Assembly: GCA_027364495.1 (NCBI GenBank)
Contig: DAHXPE010000202.1
Span: 1-8,735, forward strand
Direction of reading: 5' to 3'
Length of the DNA stretch: 8,735 nucleotides
Origin: Candidatus Heimdallarchaeota archaeon
GTDB taxonomy: Archaea > Asgardarchaeota > Heimdallarchaeia > Hodarchaeales > LC-3
Part shown: positions 1,004-8,696 of the stretch, piece after piece
How positions within the stretch are numbered: the first letter of the stretch is position 1
How the letters are laid out: the number at the start of each line of letters is the position of its first letter
Translations under genes and position numbers: made by a program
Notes under the pieces: model-generated
What the model saw: only the letters and a program-made list of their open reading frames with translations
Told to the model about the DNA's origin: nothing
Databases searched by the model: none

Positions 1004-3070
1004 TCATGATGTTTGAATGTTTTCTTTTTCCTTTATTTTTTGAATGAATTTTTCCCAAGAAATTACTTTTATTCCAACTTTTAATGCCTTATCGATTTTT
1101 GCTTGACCTGGTTTGGTTCCTAGAATTAAGTAGCTTAGCTTACCACTTACTGATGTTGACCATTCATAACCTTCCTGCTCTATAAACTCTTGTATCTGTT
1201 CTTTCGTCATATTTGCTACTGAACCCGTCACGTATACCTTACCTTTAGATTCCTCAATAGTCCTTTTATCTTGAATTGTTTTGCTAGCCTTTGGTATTTG
1301 AGAATTATTGGTACTATCTTCTTCTTCTTCTTCTTCAGCATTTGAATCTTTTTCAGTCGATGGTAAATTCAAAAAATCAGTTAGTTTAGGAGAGGGTTTA
1401 GATTTTTTAACCGTTTTTAAATTTCCTACTGTTACGCCATTTTTCAGTAGATCTTCTAAAATAACATTATTCCTTATGCCTGTAATTATCTTATCTGCGG
1501 ATATATCTGATATTCCTTCTATTTTTAATAAGTCTTCTTTTTTTGCATTTTGAAGATCATTCAATGTTGGAAAATATTTAATCAAAACTTTAGCAGTTGT
1601 TTTCCCTACTCCTTCAATTCCTAATCCGGTTAGTAGTATATCTAATGGTAAAACTTTTTTATTTTGAATTTCTTCATAAATTTTCTTACCATTCTTTCCT
1701 AGTAATGAAACCAAAGATAAAATAGTTATTTTTTTACTATACAAATCTCCAATTGTTTTTAAATAGCCCTTAGACATCAATTTCTCAACATTTTTATCAC
1801 CAAGGCCTTTAATATCTACCACTCGAATCCAATACATTATTATTTGTTTAATTCTTTCAGAACATTGCTCATTTGGACAGACCAGTGTAACATTATTTTC
1901 GGTTAAATCTGTCTCACAATAAGGACATTTTGAAGGAGGAACATAAAACCTACCAATTTTTTCAGTTACACCAGTTATTTTAGGAATAACGTCACCCGCA
2001 CGTTCTACGGTTACTAAATCACCTATTGAAATATCATTTAATTTTACAAATGCATAATTATGCATGGTTGCTCTGCTAATAGTGGCCCCAGCAACATCAA
2101 CCGGTTCTAGTTCAGCAACGGGTGTTAAAACTCCGGTTCTACCAACTTGCCAAGTTATGCCTTTTAGTGTAGTAACTGTTCCTTGATTTTCAAATTTTAA
2201 TGCTATTTGTCCACGAGGAGAATGTGCAGTAGTTCCTGCTTCTTCAAATTCTTTTCTATTATCCCAACGATACACAATTCCATCTATTTCAAAATCCAAG
2301 TCATTTCTTTTGTTCTTAAGTTCTGTATAAACACGTTCTAACTCTTGTAAAGAAGGATTCCTTAGAATTTCAAGGATAACAGTTTCAAACCCCCAGGAAG
2401 AAATAACTCCTAATTGTTGAGAGGTGTAAGTATAATTATTTAATCCAATTACATCAAAAACCATCAAGTGCAATTCTCTATTGGCCGAATCAATAGGATT
2501 CTTTTGTTTAATAGTTCCTGTGGCTAAGTTTCTAGGACTAGAAAACATTTCAGGCATTGACCCTTTTAATCTATTGAATTCAGATTTTTTCATATATAAT
2601 TCCCCTCGAATATTAACTGTTTCTTTTATGGGGATTATTTTTGGAATACTATCGACTTTCATAATGTTAGCAGTAACATTTTCACCAAGTTGCCCATTAC
2701 CTCTTGTCGAAGCTAATTTTAAAAACCCATTTTCAAAGATAATCGACATAGATAATCCATCTACTTTGTAAGAAGCTAAGATTTGCTTATCCTGAACTTT
2801 TTCAAACCAGGAATAGACTTCACTTATTCCTTCAGTTGCTTTCCTACAAGATAACATAGGAGGTTTATGTTCAACTGTTCCCTTTATTTCGTTTGATCCC
2901 ACAAGGAAAAGGACCGGATTATCTGGATCTAGCTCGCGGAGTTTATTTTCGAGATTATCAAATTCTCGATCATCAATTTCTGGCTCTCCACGATAATAGA
3001 GTGCTTTATGATAAAGGATTTTATCTGCTAATTCTTTCATCTGTTCTTGATCTTTTTTATCCTTAATCAT
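1004..3070 (-). CDS. ligA: NAD+-dependent DNA ligase, divergent active site
   Basis: A 688-aa protein of near-standard LigA length that seals nicks using NAD+. Domain Ia lies at about residues 10-60, with YY at 25-26 and D34, F37, D38 forming the NMN-binding patch. The adenylation domain follows, with catalytic K102 in KVDG. Other active-site residues are E157, R180, R255, D263 and K292. An OB fold (about 300-370), a four-Cys zinc finger (C382, C385, C398, C403), helix-hairpin-helix repeats (about 415-535) and a C-terminal BRCT (about 608-678, W672 conserved) complete the protein. A linker with six consecutive Glu (579-584), encoded by a trinucleotide run at 1318-1335, precedes the BRCT. Compared with E. 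coli LigA, E113, R208 and K290 appear as S100, K188 and R268. It starts at ATG 3070 with AGGA close upstream. It is a bacterial-type enzyme, so lateral acquisition is likely if the host is an archaeon. It is divergent from tag. Confidence 0.95.
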   Translation of the reverse strand: MIKDKKDQEQMKELADKILYHKALYYRGEPEIDDREFDNLENKLRELDPDNPVLFLVGSNEIKGTVEHKPPMLSCRKATEGISEVYSWFEKVQDKQILASYKVDGLSMSIIFENGFLKLASTRGNGQLGENVTANIMKVDSIPKIIPIKETVNIRGELYMKKSEFNRLKGSMPEMFSSPRNLATGTIKQKNPIDSANRELHLMVFDVIGLNNYTYTSQQLGVISSWGFETVILEILRNPSLQELERVYTELKNKRNDLDFEIDGIVYRWDNRKEFEEAGTTAHSPRGQIALKFENQGTVTTLKGITWQVGRTGVLTPVAELEPVDVAGATISRATMHNYAFVKLNDISIGDLVTVERAGDVIPKITGVTEKIGRFYVPPSKCPYCETDLTENNVTLVCPNEQCSERIKQIIMYWIRVVDIKGLGDKNVEKLMSKGYLKTIGDLYSKKITILSLVSLLGKNGKKIYEEIQNKKVLPLDILLTGLGIEGVGKTTAKVLIKYFPTLNDLQNAKKEDLLKIEGISDISADKIITGIRNNVILEDLLKNGVTVGNLKTVKKSKPSPKLTDFLNLPSTEKDSNAEEEEEEDSTNNSQIPKASKTIQDKRTIEESKGKVYVTGSVANMTKEQIQEFIEQEGYEWSTSVSGKLSYLILGTKPGQAKIDKALKVGIKVISWEKFIQKIKEKENIQTS
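1019..1041 (+). terminator. T-rich terminator of the methyltransferase, inside the ligA 3' end
   Basis: On the + strand, 21 nt after the methyltransferase stop, there are T runs at 1020-1023, 1025-1029 and 1036-1041 with no hairpin, the pattern of archaeal U-tract terminators. The same bases encode the Lys/Glu-rich C-terminal tail of LigA on the other strand, so the T richness may be partly a by-product of Lys and Glu codons. Confidence 0.4.
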
Positions 3071-4211: not shown

Positions 4212-4763
4212 TTAATTACTTTGGAGTCTCCTAACTACGGAAGAATCAAATAAATTGGGACAGCATCTATCCCTGAGTTTTTTGTCCCTTTTTATTATCA
4301 TCTTAATTAGCTTTTCAAATTTTTTATCTTCCGGAATTAACCATTCATGACTTAGGTCCAAATTTTCAGAATATTGCAGTTTAATAATCCAATATTCATC
4401 ATAAACTGACTCTTGTGTTAAAACTACGGGCCTCTCTTCTGAACATTCTTTTAAAATGGGATTAATTTCTAATATTTTTGCAGTAAAGGGAGCAAATAAA
4501 TTCATTTCATAATTGAATCCTTTTAAAAAGAGAAAAATTTCATTTTCAATCAATTTACTGGTATTTTTAAATATGTCCAATAATGTGAACTTTGATAATT
4601 TCTCCAATTTAAGCGCACCTAAGGAGGAAATACCCAAGATATAAACATCACTATAATTGGCATCTTTTTTAATCCATACTGCACCATTAGGATCATTAAG
4701 TGAAAATAAATAATCTTTTTTAGGAAAAATTAAATTTTCTATTGTAATGTATTCTGCTTTCAT
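4212..4763 (-). CDS. GcvH-like (lipoyl-domain fold) protein lacking the lipoyl lysine
   Basis: A 183-aa protein. Residues about 18-150 follow the pattern of glycine-cleavage H protein: an N-terminal strand region, a VYILGISSLGALKLEKL segment (40-56) where H proteins have the GITDYAQ..LGDIV stretch, the central hairpin (76-101), then YDEYWIIKLQYSE (121-133) matching the family's GWLIKI.LS end, and a final helix. Aligning on the Pro of FAPF (P92), the position of the lipoylated Lys is N84, eight residues before it; the nearest Lys is K81. It is therefore probably not lipoylated and cannot work as a normal H protein. A basic tail with CC (167-168) extends beyond the family's usual 125-130 aa. 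The ATG at 4763 overlaps the upstream stop as ATGA, so I prefer it to the GTG at 4775. No other glycine-cleavage gene is in the window. Fold assignment is by eye. Confidence 0.6.
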   Translation of the reverse strand: MKAEYITIENLIFPKKDYLFSLNDPNGAVWIKKDANYSDVYILGISSLGALKLEKLSKFTLLDIFKNTSKLIENEIFLFLKGFNYEMNLFAPFTAKILEINPILKECSEERPVVLTQESVYDEYWIIKLQYSENLDLSHEWLIPEDKKFEKLIKMIIKRDKKLRDRCCPNLFDSSVVRRLQSN

Positions 4764-5212
4764 TCTACGAACCACGCAGATCTTTCAATTCCATCAATGT
4801 CAATACTAATCCATTTATTTTTTTTAATTATATCATATTCCTTTAATAATCTTGCATACAAAAAACTTTCTGGTTCATAAACATAACATTCAAACAAATT
4901 TGCTTTTAAAACCTTGAAATATTCAATTCCTTGATCTAGTATTTTTCCCTGACTTGTATCATAAAATATAACCTCCCCATTCTTTGCCAACTCTTTAAAT
5001 TCAAATTTTAATAATTCGAGTAGCTTGTCTAATGTTTGATCAATATTCTCTTCTTCTGGATAAATATTATAACTGATGTTATAATTATTCGCTGTCCTTC
5101 GATAAGTCGGTCCAGTAAATTTTAAATGCAGATCAAACTCAAATAAAGTCTTATTTATCGAAGTTACAATTTTTGTCAAATAATTTTCTATAAACAATTG
5201 TTCTGAAATCAC
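4760..5212 (-). CDS. hypothetical protein, 150 aa, coupled to the GcvH-like gene
   Basis: I do not recognise this family. It is a soluble alpha/beta protein with no TM segment or signal peptide. An N-terminal helix (about 4-22) is followed by strand-like stretches (about 25-32 and 44-50), an acidic helix (56-76, DQTLDKLLELLKFEFKELAK), a strand ending in FYD (82-85), and a C-terminal region with KWISIDIDGIERSAWF. It has one Cys (C109). The start is GTG 5212; an in-frame stop lies four codons upstream and a TTG at codon 6 is the only nearby alternative. An A/T box (GATAAAATAT, 5231-5240) is centred about 24 nt before the GTG, fitting a leaderless transcript. Its TGA overlaps the next gene's ATG by four bases, so the two products are probably made together and may interact. 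Confidence 0.75.
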   Translation of the reverse strand: MISEQLFIENYLTKIVTSINKTLFEFDLHLKFTGPTYRRTANNYNISYNIYPEEENIDQTLDKLLELLKFEFKELAKNGEVIFYDTSQGKILDQGIEYFKVLKANLFECYVYEPESFLYARLLKEYDIIKKNKWISIDIDGIERSAWFVE

Positions 5213-5293: not shown

Positions 5294-5313
5294 TTGCTCA
5301 AAGCTTTGAGCAA
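5294..5313. promoter_or_regulatory. perfect 20-bp palindrome, candidate operator
   Basis: TTGCTCAAAGCTTTGAGCAA reads the same on both strands with no spacer. It is the most GC-containing element in an otherwise A/T-only intergenic region, between the divergent two-gene operon (start 5212) and the kinase gene (start 5415), about 80-100 bp from each start. A dimeric regulator could bind here. It is not followed by a T tract and points toward no gene end, so a terminator is unlikely. Confidence 0.55.
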
Positions 5314-5414: not shown

Positions 5415-6872
5415 TTGACAAGCCCATTACGAAGTAGAGATTTCAATAACTTTCTCCAATTTATCTACGAACATCTGATAAGTGTTATAGTTCTAGCTTC
5501 TATCATTCTCTACCTTCTTTGGAATCTAACAAGATTCATTTTTAAGTTAGTTTTGACAGAAAGTCAACAAAATGTAGCTTATGCCTTACAAGAATTTCTT
5601 AATAGCGTCTTAATAACTTTAATAATTGTTTTTTTTGTTATTAGTATCCAGCGCCGAGAATTTTCTTATTTTGAGCATATGTCTCTTATTAGTAATGGTA
5701 TTATTAAAACAACCAGCTATCCATATAGAATTATTTATGCTAATCAACAATTACTTGATCTCTTAAATTATTCTGAAGAAATAATATTTAATATGAATTT
5801 AATATCTCTATGCCATCCGAATGATCAATTAAAGATTGAGAGTTTCATAAAAAATCAAGCCATACCATCTATAAAAAACATTGAATTAGAACTACTTACA
5901 TCAGATGGAAAAACAAATCCTGTATTATTATCCATTTCACGAATGTTTTCTATGTTTACAAAAAAAGAAAAGGGTCTTTTTATTGTAGTGAATGATATTA
6001 AAAACCTTCGAGAAGCTCAAAAACAAGTTGAACATTTAATGCAAGTAGAAAAAGACTCATTTCTAAATAATTTTGTTCAAAAGGTTGGTCATGAGATTAA
6101 TAATCCATTATCATTCATGATGTATGATTCAGAACGACTAATTGAATATGTCAGTAAAATGATTGGGATGTTAAAAATTTATGATGAAGTTGAAAAGAAA
6201 ATAAAAATGAGCTCTGAAAATCCAGAAATAGTCAATAACATGGTTAGAATTGAACAAATGAAACGTGAAATGAATTATGAATCTGCTGTTTCTGATTTAG
6301 AAGAAATTTTGACTGCAACCAAGGAGGGCATCAATAGAATTGCTAAAGTTGTAAAAGAGGTAAGGACATATCCATTCCAGGGATCTGAAAAATATAGACA
6401 ATCATTAAATAACATTTTAAAACTAACGATTGACCTAATAAAAGGTTATTATCTAAAAGATAAGCCAGATATTTTAATTCAATCAGATCTGGATATAAAC
6501 TTACCTCAAATACCTTTGAAAGCAGGCGAAATAGCTCAAATATTACTCAATATGTTAATAAATTCCATTCAAGCAATAGAGGAAATAAGAGATTCTGGGA
6601 AAATAATAATTAAAACAAAATTACTTAAAAGTACTCAATTAGTTATGGATGAGAATCCTCTAATAGAATTATCAATCGAGGATAATGGAATTGGCATTAA
6701 AAATATTGATTTACCAAAAATATTTGATCCTTATTTTACAACTAAAAAAGATGGAACAGGACTTGGTTTAAGTAACGTAAAGAAAGTAATTGAAGACCAT
6801 AATGGTACAATTGATATTAAATCAGAATATCTGAAAGGAACAATAATAATTATTACCTTACCAGCATATTAA
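5415..6872 (+). CDS. membrane PAS-domain sensor histidine kinase
   Basis: A 485-aa kinase. Two hydrophobic helices (about 20-46 and 63-78) with a short loop anchor it; there is almost no extracytoplasmic domain, so sensing is probably by the membrane part or the PAS domain (about 92-195, with IIYANQQLLDLL and ending in DIKNLREAQK). A coiled coil leads to the HisKA helix, where H226 in VGHEINNPL is the phosphoacceptor. A long helical hairpin (235-320) follows. The HATPase domain is complete: N box LLNMLINSIQAIEE (N379, N383), G1 box DNGIGI (D423), F box IFDPYFTTK, and G2 box GTGLGLS (447-453). It lacks a receiver. The start is TTG 5415; an in-frame stop lies two codons upstream and the first internal ATG would remove both TM helices. 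It converges on the RHH-receiver gene, the likely phosphotransfer partner. Confidence 0.93.
   Translation: MTSPLRSRDFNNFLQFIYEHLISVIVLASIILYLLWNLTRFIFKLVLTESQQNVAYALQEFLNSVLITLIIVFFVISIQRREFSYFEHMSLISNGIIKTTSYPYRIIYANQQLLDLLNYSEEIIFNMNLISLCHPNDQLKIESFIKNQAIPSIKNIELELLTSDGKTNPVLLSISRMFSMFTKKEKGLFIVVNDIKNLREAQKQVEHLMQVEKDSFLNNFVQKVGHEINNPLSFMMYDSERLIEYVSKMIGMLKIYDEVEKKIKMSSENPEIVNNMVRIEQMKREMNYESAVSDLEEILTATKEGINRIAKVVKEVRTYPFQGSEKYRQSLNNILKLTIDLIKGYYLKDKPDILIQSDLDINLPQIPLKAGEIAQILLNMLINSIQAIEEIRDSGKIIIKTKLLKSTQLVMDENPLIELSIEDNGIGIKNIDLPKIFDPYFTTKKDGTGLGLSNVKKVIEDHNGTIDIKSEYLKGTIIIITLPAY
6146..6165 (+). repeat. 20-bp exact direct repeat, copy 1 (inside the kinase gene)
   Basis: These 20 bases, within the codons for YVSKMI of the kinase (residues 245-250), recur exactly at 8716-8735, the last bases of the window. 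The flank before the repeat differs, and nothing follows the second copy. Confidence 0.6.
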
Positions 6873-6965: not shown

Positions 6966-8603
6966 TTACTGATTGGGATTTCGTTTTTTCAATATTTCCT
7001 GTTTGATAATGTCTCTTAACACTTGTGCTTCGGGAGGTTTTTCGATAAAGAAATGAATGCGTGCTTTATTAATTGCATCTCTAGCAATTTCAAGCTCTGA
7101 ATAACCGGTAATAAGAATTCTGATAATAGAAGGATCATATAAACGAACTTTTTCTAATAATTCAACCCCTTTCATACCTGGCATATTATGATCTGAAAGG
7201 ACTAAATCAAAAGGTCCTTCTTTTTCTAATTTTTCTAGTGCTTCTTCTCCAGATTCAGCAGTAACAATTGAATAGGATAGTTCTTCTTCCCTTTCCAAAG
7301 TTTTTGCTAAACTTTGTAAAATTCTTTTTTCATCATCAACAATAAGGATGGAAGTAGCTGTTCTATTGATAATATATTCATTTCTATAATGTCCTTCCTC
7401 TACTGAACGTTTAAGAGATACATTATAGCCACTATTCAGTAAATAACCAGAAATTATTTCTAATAATGAATTACCACTTAATAGAGGATTTTGAATGGTT
7501 AATAATGCTCCATCTCTCTTCAAGGATAGTTCAGTTTTACCAAAACCAAAGTAATCATTGAAAATAATTTTCAAATTCGTAAGTGCTGTATCTAGAACAA
7601 AATTTTCAGTTGTTTTTTCAATAGCTGGTAAATGGATATCATGTATTTTTTTACCGATTTCTCTCAGTAGTTCATTTAATTTTTCAGTGTTGGAAATATT
7701 AACAGCATCAAAAAAGTCAACCAGAAATTCCTGTGGAAGGTAACTAAATCGCCTATTGCCAGTTGTGAATAAACCCTGTTCCCATCTAGGAATTTCAAGT
7801 AATGATGCAACATTTATAATGTCTTTTATAATTTCTTTTTCAGATTTTGCAGTATCTTCAGTAAAACCTTCCAATTTCGCACGTAAATCTTTATACATAC
7901 CTATTCTTGAATCAACATCAAGAACCTCTTCTTCTAACTCTTTCAAATCTTGTTTAATAGAATCAGATTCGGCATTTTCTTCTGAAGACGCTCCATCTTC
8001 AGTTTGCCATTCAAGGAGAATTCTATCATTTACGATTCTATAATGAATATTAAAACCCAGAAAATCTAAAATTCCCTGGATTTGCCCAGCAATTCGCTCA
8101 GGAAACTTATGAAGAAAATTAGGATGGATAACAACTTTTTTTTCTGGTTCAGATGAGGCTAACACATAAAAAGATCTGAATGTATCAGAAACTTGTTGAA
8201 TAATCTCCACTAGTGAAGCGAAATTTTTTGAGTAATTTTGTGCCAATTTAGACATGGTTTTTTGAATTTCAAGGTCCTGAAGAACCCAATTTCGCTGTTT
8301 TTTGACAAATTCATTAAGACTGGCATTATCGAGAAGAACTTCTAATAGTTCATCGATTGTCTGGCTCCGGACTAGGATAAAGCCACTAAATGAAGACAAG
8401 GCATCAAATAATTCTGACTTTCTTCGTAAGTCTCTTATCTCTTCCTCTGACTCTACGATATCAGTTTCGACTTCCATTTCTTCAAGAATTTCGATTCCAC
8501 GTTCAATGACTTCATTCATTGTTCCATATCGTCTAGTTAAATTATCAAGCTTTTTCCTGTGCAAAGGACTAATTACAGTCTGAATTCTGCTAGTTCGTTT
8601 CAA
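6966..8603 (-). CDS. RHH DNA-binding, sensor-like middle and C-terminal receiver fusion (response regulator)
   Basis: A 545-aa soluble protein. Residues 5-44 form a ribbon-helix-helix: strand RIQTVIS (6-12), helix PLHRKKLDNLTRRYG, turn TMN, helix EVIERGIEILEEME, as in CopG/Arc/MetJ DNA-binding proteins. Residues 45-410 are helical and unrecognised; two stretches (157-190 and 368-398) share a pattern ending G(F/Y)N(I/V), and an acidic coiled coil (about 205-260) separates them. The second resembles V4R ligand-binding domains only vaguely. Residues 417-540 are a full receiver: D423/D424 acidic pocket, D471 phosphoacceptor in LSDHNMPG, T499 and K522. The likely donor is the kinase encoded at 5415-6872. 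The start is TTG 8603, immediately before KRTSRIQ; no ATG exists upstream before the stop at 8628. The order is unusual, since most DNA-binding response regulators have the receiver first. Confidence 0.88.
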   Translation of the reverse strand: MKRTSRIQTVISPLHRKKLDNLTRRYGTMNEVIERGIEILEEMEVETDIVESEEEIRDLRRKSELFDALSSFSGFILVRSQTIDELLEVLLDNASLNEFVKKQRNWVLQDLEIQKTMSKLAQNYSKNFASLVEIIQQVSDTFRSFYVLASSEPEKKVVIHPNFLHKFPERIAGQIQGILDFLGFNIHYRIVNDRILLEWQTEDGASSEENAESDSIKQDLKELEEEVLDVDSRIGMYKDLRAKLEGFTEDTAKSEKEIIKDIINVASLLEIPRWEQGLFTTGNRRFSYLPQEFLVDFFDAVNISNTEKLNELLREIGKKIHDIHLPAIEKTTENFVLDTALTNLKIIFNDYFGFGKTELSLKRDGALLTIQNPLLSGNSLLEIISGYLLNSGYNVSLKRSVEEGHYRNEYIINRTATSILIVDDEKRILQSLAKTLEREEELSYSIVTAESGEEALEKLEKEGPFDLVLSDHNMPGMKGVELLEKVRLYDPSIIRILITGYSELEIARDAINKARIHFFIEKPPEAQVLRDIIKQEILKKRNPNQ

Positions 8604-8675: not shown

Positions 8676-8696
8676 ATTTAAATAATTTATTTAAAT
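8676..8696. promoter_or_regulatory. 21-bp A/T palindrome, candidate operator or distal promoter
   Basis: Ten bases are perfectly mirrored around a central T at 8686. Each arm holds an ATTTAAAT octamer (8676-8683 and 8689-8696) that is itself palindromic, so two small palindromes sit 13 bp apart. RHH dimers often bind tandem short palindromes cooperatively, so autoregulation by the adjacent RHH protein is possible. Pure A/T composition makes chance symmetry more likely, and it could simply be a TATA region. Confidence 0.35.

Follow-up and report, generated by a model that had tools for sequence, protein, structure and literature searches.

Response regulators that bind DNA are said to be uncommon in archaea, and the way in which such bacterial-like parts meet the archaeal transcription machinery to be incompletely understood (PMC5847659, PMC11784639). 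Two described archaeal regulators, FilR1 (winged helix-turn-helix domain, DUF1724, receiver) and LtrR (helix-turn-helix domain, receiver), carry the receiver (REC) last, and Lokiarchaeum GC14_75 encodes four proteins that join an Arc-type ribbon-helix-helix (RHH) domain, HisKA and REC (PMC5847659). The REC-MetOD1 regulators of methanogens couple a receiver to a domain for which similarity to V4R/HNOB has been noted (PMC5847659). Here, we describe a response regulator encoded on the minus strand at positions 6966–8603 of an 8,735-nucleotide stretch of DNA (the window) from a Candidatus Heimdallarchaeota archaeon (contig DAHXPE010000202.1, assembly GCA_027364495.1). On balance, we favour reading it as an Asgard lineage-specific response regulator with the architecture RHH–V4R-like–V4R-like–REC, working by the mechanism proposed below.

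Like FilR1 of Methanosaeta harundinacea (PMC5847659, PMC3991700), the regulator is archaeal, ends in a receiver and has a middle that is uncharacterised behind its DNA-binding domain, here a predicted one. Unlike FilR1, it has a predicted RHH domain, and neither the winged helix-turn-helix domain nor DUF1724 was among the six Pfam families listed for it at E ≤ 10. It shares with the lokiarchaeal proteins an RHH domain followed by a receiver within one Asgard protein, but where their published architecture has HisKA, a TRAPP/V4R fold is predicted here. The REC-MetOD1 regulators differ in having the receiver first, a single V4R-like domain with conserved cysteines and no RHH domain. Each element is thus already in print (PMC5847659): a receiver in last place, an RHH domain together with REC in Asgard archaea, and a V4R-like domain together with REC. 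The view of an earlier note, made from this DNA alone, that receiver-last order is exceptional is not supported, given FilR1, LtrR and the four Lokiarchaeum proteins. The combination of RHH, V4R-like and REC was not found in a literature search, most subscription journals being beyond its reach.

Domain architecture and relatives of the regulator

The receiver was detected with Pfam Response_reg at residues 419–533 (E = 2.5e-22, 79.6 bits against a gathering score of 30.2), and the best Z against solved receivers in a structural search with the full-length model was 22.3. In the family alignment of 22 rows, which includes the window protein, Response_reg was found in 19 rows. The catalytic residues were intact: D423 and D424 were present in all 20 rows that have a residue at these columns, D471 and T499 in all 19 and K522 in 20 of 20, a count that includes P0016, whose C terminus is disrupted and whose lysine may be there by chance. 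All five matches of the window protein to PHROGs at E < 1e-6 lay on the receiver. The receiver was missing from P0017 and P0020 and disrupted in P0016, likely through truncation, since the longest contigs measured only 1.1–4.1 kb; P0017 (4.1 kb) could be a genuinely receiver-less relative.

The N-terminal domain (residues 1–46) was the best-conserved region of the protein, with 78% identity (mean pairwise identity among nine divergent family members, as for all regional values given here). Its profile matched the RHH fold: residues 1–60 (17 rows), aligned to 21 RHH sequences, gave an HHalign score of 24.2 (probability 65%) over residues 11–46. None of 200 column shuffles reached this score (mean 8.3, maximum 13.0). 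Column shuffling is a lenient control because it destroys helical periodicity, and reversed profiles were run in addition; the reversed set scored 9.7, and other regions of the regulator scored 11.9–15.9. Against PDB sequences, the top two of six matches to the N-terminal profile were ParD RHH antitoxins in identical register, both weak (E 0.15 and 0.23). Pfam ParD_antitoxin matched three of the 22 rows (best E 0.0097; P0008 with 14.5 bits against a cut-off of 21), and no Pfam RHH model matched the window protein at E ≤ 10. The AlphaFold monomer placed helices at residues 13–26 and 29–45 with low to moderate confidence and left the N-terminal strand unformed (residues 1–12, predicted local distance difference test (pLDDT) < 50). 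Five aligned rows (P0004, P0005, P0006, P0009 and P0015) start at an internal Met29 and lose half of the RHH domain; these starts are probably mis-called by the gene caller, since P0006 is exactly P0002 minus its first residues.

R3, R6, Q8 and T9 were conserved in 17 of 17 rows. Such residues would be expected to be conserved in the DNA-contacting strand of an RHH domain, which argues for a gene regulator rather than an antitoxin-like or oligomerisation module through which phosphorylation and ligand sensing would steer protein partners. That alternative, which we regard as unlikely, draws on the weak ParD matches and on the description of archaeal REC-associated domains as possibly serving input, dimerisation or partner binding (PMC5847659). 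The seven window proteins scanned with Pfam showed no match to a toxin family; the gene upstream of the regulator lies outside the window.

The order of RHH first and receiver last is supported by the HHalign profile match and by Response_reg. The earlier note had placed the gene at exactly the right coordinates, and the receiver residues that it named (D423/D424, D471, T499 and K522) were all correct. Its predicted RHH domain at residues 5–44 gains support from the HHalign score against shuffles, and both helices are placed as expected, with no Pfam RHH match and the strand unformed in the monomer model. The open reading frame (ORF) lies on the minus strand; the plus strand of 6966–8603 was stop-rich in frame 1.

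Relatives were sought among approximately 5.8 billion proteins, with only the 7992 candidates having the most words in common scored; such word-based searches reach relatives that share exact short words, and more distant ones may exist. The full-length search gave 531 matches at E ≤ 0.001. Among the best 120 of these, 21 (P0001–P0021) covered 66–100% of the query and the remaining 99 covered at most 27%. A profile of residues 1–412 recovered the same 21 proteins and the fragments P0121 and P0122, and none else at E ≤ 0.001 (23 proteins). With residues 1–62 as the query, 45 candidates yielded 17 proteins at E ≤ 10, every one of them within the 21. The architecture was kept in this family. The four named relatives, from Candidatus Hodarchaeales (P0008, P0018), Heimdallarchaeota (P0013) and Kariarchaeaceae (P0122), all belong to the Asgard kingdom Promethearchaeati and are spread over three phyla. 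A census of two-component systems in archaea cautioned that contamination might account for bacterial-type regulators on Asgard contigs from metagenomes (PMC5847659); named relatives from three Asgard phyla and several sources argue against this. A scan of genome contigs gave five loci, all titled bacterial, whose matches fell on the receiver or close to it. In viral contigs, 16 candidate stretches came up and none was confirmed. With tblastn, plasmids gave 116 records that all fell short of 80% of the query; the ten listed match residues 374–542. P0121 bears a precomputed Pfam accession (PF27315.1) without an entry in the Pfam copy used, and part of the family may be named in another Pfam release.

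The middle region and its predicted TRAPP/V4R fold

As in the earlier note, which recognised nothing between the RHH domain and the receiver, the middle gave no convincing match to curated families (Pfam, NCBIfam). Run against PDB sequences, the profile for residues 1–412 gave two matches, judged to be chance (E 1.3 and 1.4). Since every row shown from the structural search with the full-length model was a receiver, the middle was modelled separately. Its predicted structure resembled chains of the TRAPP/V4R superfamily, one unit clearly and one probably. In the model, residues 285–415 (unit 2) form a helical layer on a four-stranded antiparallel sheet, as the TRAPP/V4R fold requires, and this fold is predicted for them; residues 66–202 (unit 1) probably adopt a fold of the same superfamily. 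The stretch between them, residues 203–284, had a pLDDT mostly < 60 and 38% identity. Structure prediction of the full protein and of the middle, as suggested in the earlier note, thus gave the N-terminal helices and a TRAPP/V4R-like middle, and the possible sensor region of that note now has a predicted fold known to bind ligands elsewhere. The structural matches also speak against a decayed histidine kinase in the middle, as does the lack of any HisKA or HATPase match to the window protein in Pfam at E ≤ 10; the occurrence of RHH-HisKA-REC proteins in Lokiarchaeum GC14_75 (PMC5847659) favours such an origin, which would make the regulator a relative of theirs and which we consider very improbable.

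Several results weigh against the TRAPP/V4R assignment. AlphaFold confidence was moderate in the two models (mean pLDDT 63.6 and 69.5; predicted template modelling score 0.36 and 0.44). Pfam V4R (PF02830) was not among the six families listed for the window protein at E ≤ 10, and HHalign gave V4R a probability of just 13%. In sequence, unit 1 resembled neither V4R (46 of 200 shuffles scored as well) nor unit 2 (HHalign 16.2, equalled by 29 of 200 shuffles and exceeded by the reversed profile at 17.8). The window protein has no cysteine, its relatives have 0–4 each and no column exceeded 70% cysteine. Finally, the glycine pairs (GxxxG) are half kept: G317 (21 of 22 rows) and G386 (20 of 21) are present, with their partners missing in the window protein; in helix 5, a complete GxxxG is confined to P0008 and P0009. 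Paired glycines in helices 2 and 5 are described for Bet3/V4R (PMC2253512). The zinc site of prokaryotic V4R domains is absent, as there is no cysteine to form it; mouse TRAPPC3 has likewise lost it (PMC10933270).

In the V4R HHalign test, the reversed profile scored low (15.4). V4R was absent from the 25 Pfam families listed, of 40, for the other alignment rows. An internal duplication of the two units was considered, their elements being in the same order, and is not demonstrated, because shuffles equalled, and the reversed profile exceeded, the score between them. A heme-binding H-NOX reading of unit 1 was dropped, as residues 66–202 hold no histidine kept in more than 70% of rows.

Proteins with this fold differ from the regulator in their surroundings. 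TRAPPC3/Bet3, which in eukaryotes is a trafficking-complex subunit and which Thorarchaeota also have, is not known to carry an attached RHH domain or receiver, and the phenol-responsive PoxR, MopR and DmpR are bacterial sigma-54 activators that are not known to have a receiver. The V4R domain of PoxR, moreover, has a zinc site (PMC10933270).

Proposed mechanism and the kinase neighbour

The regulator probably controls genes by integrating two inputs, a chemical cue from inside the cell and a signal from a kinase. DNA binding, phosphorylation by the neighbouring kinase, ligand binding and the coupling among them are steps that we infer. A histidine kinase, possibly the one encoded by the convergent neighbour, would phosphorylate D471, and both TRAPP/V4R-fold domains would bind a small intracellular molecule, probably hydrophobic. 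Phosphorylation and ligand occupancy would both alter the homodimer and so change the grip of the N-terminal RHH dimer on its operator. Phenols are bound by the V4R fold of PoxR, and palmitate by that of mouse TRAPPC3 (PMC10933270); more generally, its ligands are believed to be hydrophobic (PMC2253512). That a DNA-binding domain at the N terminus can work with a receiver at the C terminus is shown by FilR1: it is phosphorylated by FilI, it is found in association with its own promoter in vivo, and its DNA binding is enhanced on phosphorylation (PMC3991700). More specifically, and tentatively, the protein may be a two-input switch in which RHH DNA binding is set jointly by phosphorylation and by a lipid- or isoprenoid-like ligand in the tandem TRAPP-fold domains, sensing membrane or hydrophobic metabolites.

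The two units might instead be ligand-free dimerisation or scaffold modules in a plain phospho-switched RHH repressor or activator. An RHH domain requires a dimer, the window protein lacks metal-site cysteines, and V4R/TRAPPC3 domains also homodimerise (PMC10933270). Two units, however, exceed the needs of a dimer interface, and conservation of unit 1 is good (54% identity, compared with 34% in unit 2); we therefore doubt this alternative to ligand sensing.

The earlier note had pointed to the adjacent kinase as a possible phosphodonor. The kinase gene does adjoin that of the regulator, at 93 bases; the two genes stand tail to tail and do not form an operon, which counts against the proposed pairing. 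Because the genes are convergent, their adjacency is weak evidence that the two proteins work together.

Other features of the window and biological meaning

The domains of the regulator and the features of its surroundings are collected in Table 1.

Table 1. Positions of the regulator gene, its domains and neighbouring features in the window.
Feature	Position	Strand	Remarks
Response regulator gene	6966..8603	-	545 aa (amino acids), TTG start at 8603; full-length relatives to 36–37% identity
Residues 1–46, predicted RHH DNA-binding domain	8466..8603	-	HHalign, weak ParD PDB matches, helices 13–26 and 29–45, conservation
Residues 66–202, probable first TRAPP/V4R/HNOB-superfamily-like unit	7998..8408	-	
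Residues 203–284, low-confidence stretch separating the units; W274 and G277 invariant	7752..7997	-	pLDDT, identity, alignment
Residues 285–415, predicted Bet3/TRAPPC3-V4R-fold domain, putative ligand binding	7359..7751	-	
Residues 416–536, receiver domain, predicted phosphoacceptor D471	6996..7358	-	
Histidine kinase gene, candidate partner	5415..6872	+	485 aa; PAS, HATPase_c; N-terminal hydrophobic segments by eye; HisKA below cut-off
Perfect 20-base palindrome, possible operator	5294..5313	.	Upstream of the kinase gene, between divergent ORFs 4760–5212 (-) and 5415–6872 (+)

The palindrome is unusually G+C-rich for the window, whose own G+C content is 29%. None of 100 shuffles held a gapless palindrome with 10-base arms and at least 8 G+C, a criterion fixed after the palindrome had been seen, and no second copy with up to three mismatches occurred in the window. 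An inverted repeat of A and T only at 8676–8696, in the regulator promoter, is not claimed as an operator. Further genes lie on the minus strand. An NAD-dependent DNA ligase, a type of enzyme that is typically bacterial, is encoded at 1004–3070 (adenylation, OB, HHH and BRCT domains) on this apparently archaeal contig. The product of 4212–4775 gave a weak match resembling the glycine-cleavage H protein (Pfam 21.2 bits against a cut-off of 22.2; PDB E 0.00036); this ORF overlaps the upstream ORF 4760–5212 by 16 bases, and the latter had no family match in Pfam or NCBIfam.

The regulator family offers a concrete, conserved candidate for a DNA-binding response regulator in Asgard archaea. In Asgard lineages, the TRAPP/V4R fold has been investigated as a precursor to eukaryotic trafficking (PMC10933270). 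If the ligand step is true, the fold would serve in these archaea, close to the eukaryotic root, as a sensor for gene regulation, and the question of whether sensing or trafficking came first (PMC2253512) would become open to a direct ligand test. Should the regulator also prove to be a two-input switch, a eukaryotic vesicle-tethering fold would work as a gene-regulatory sensor in Asgard archaea.
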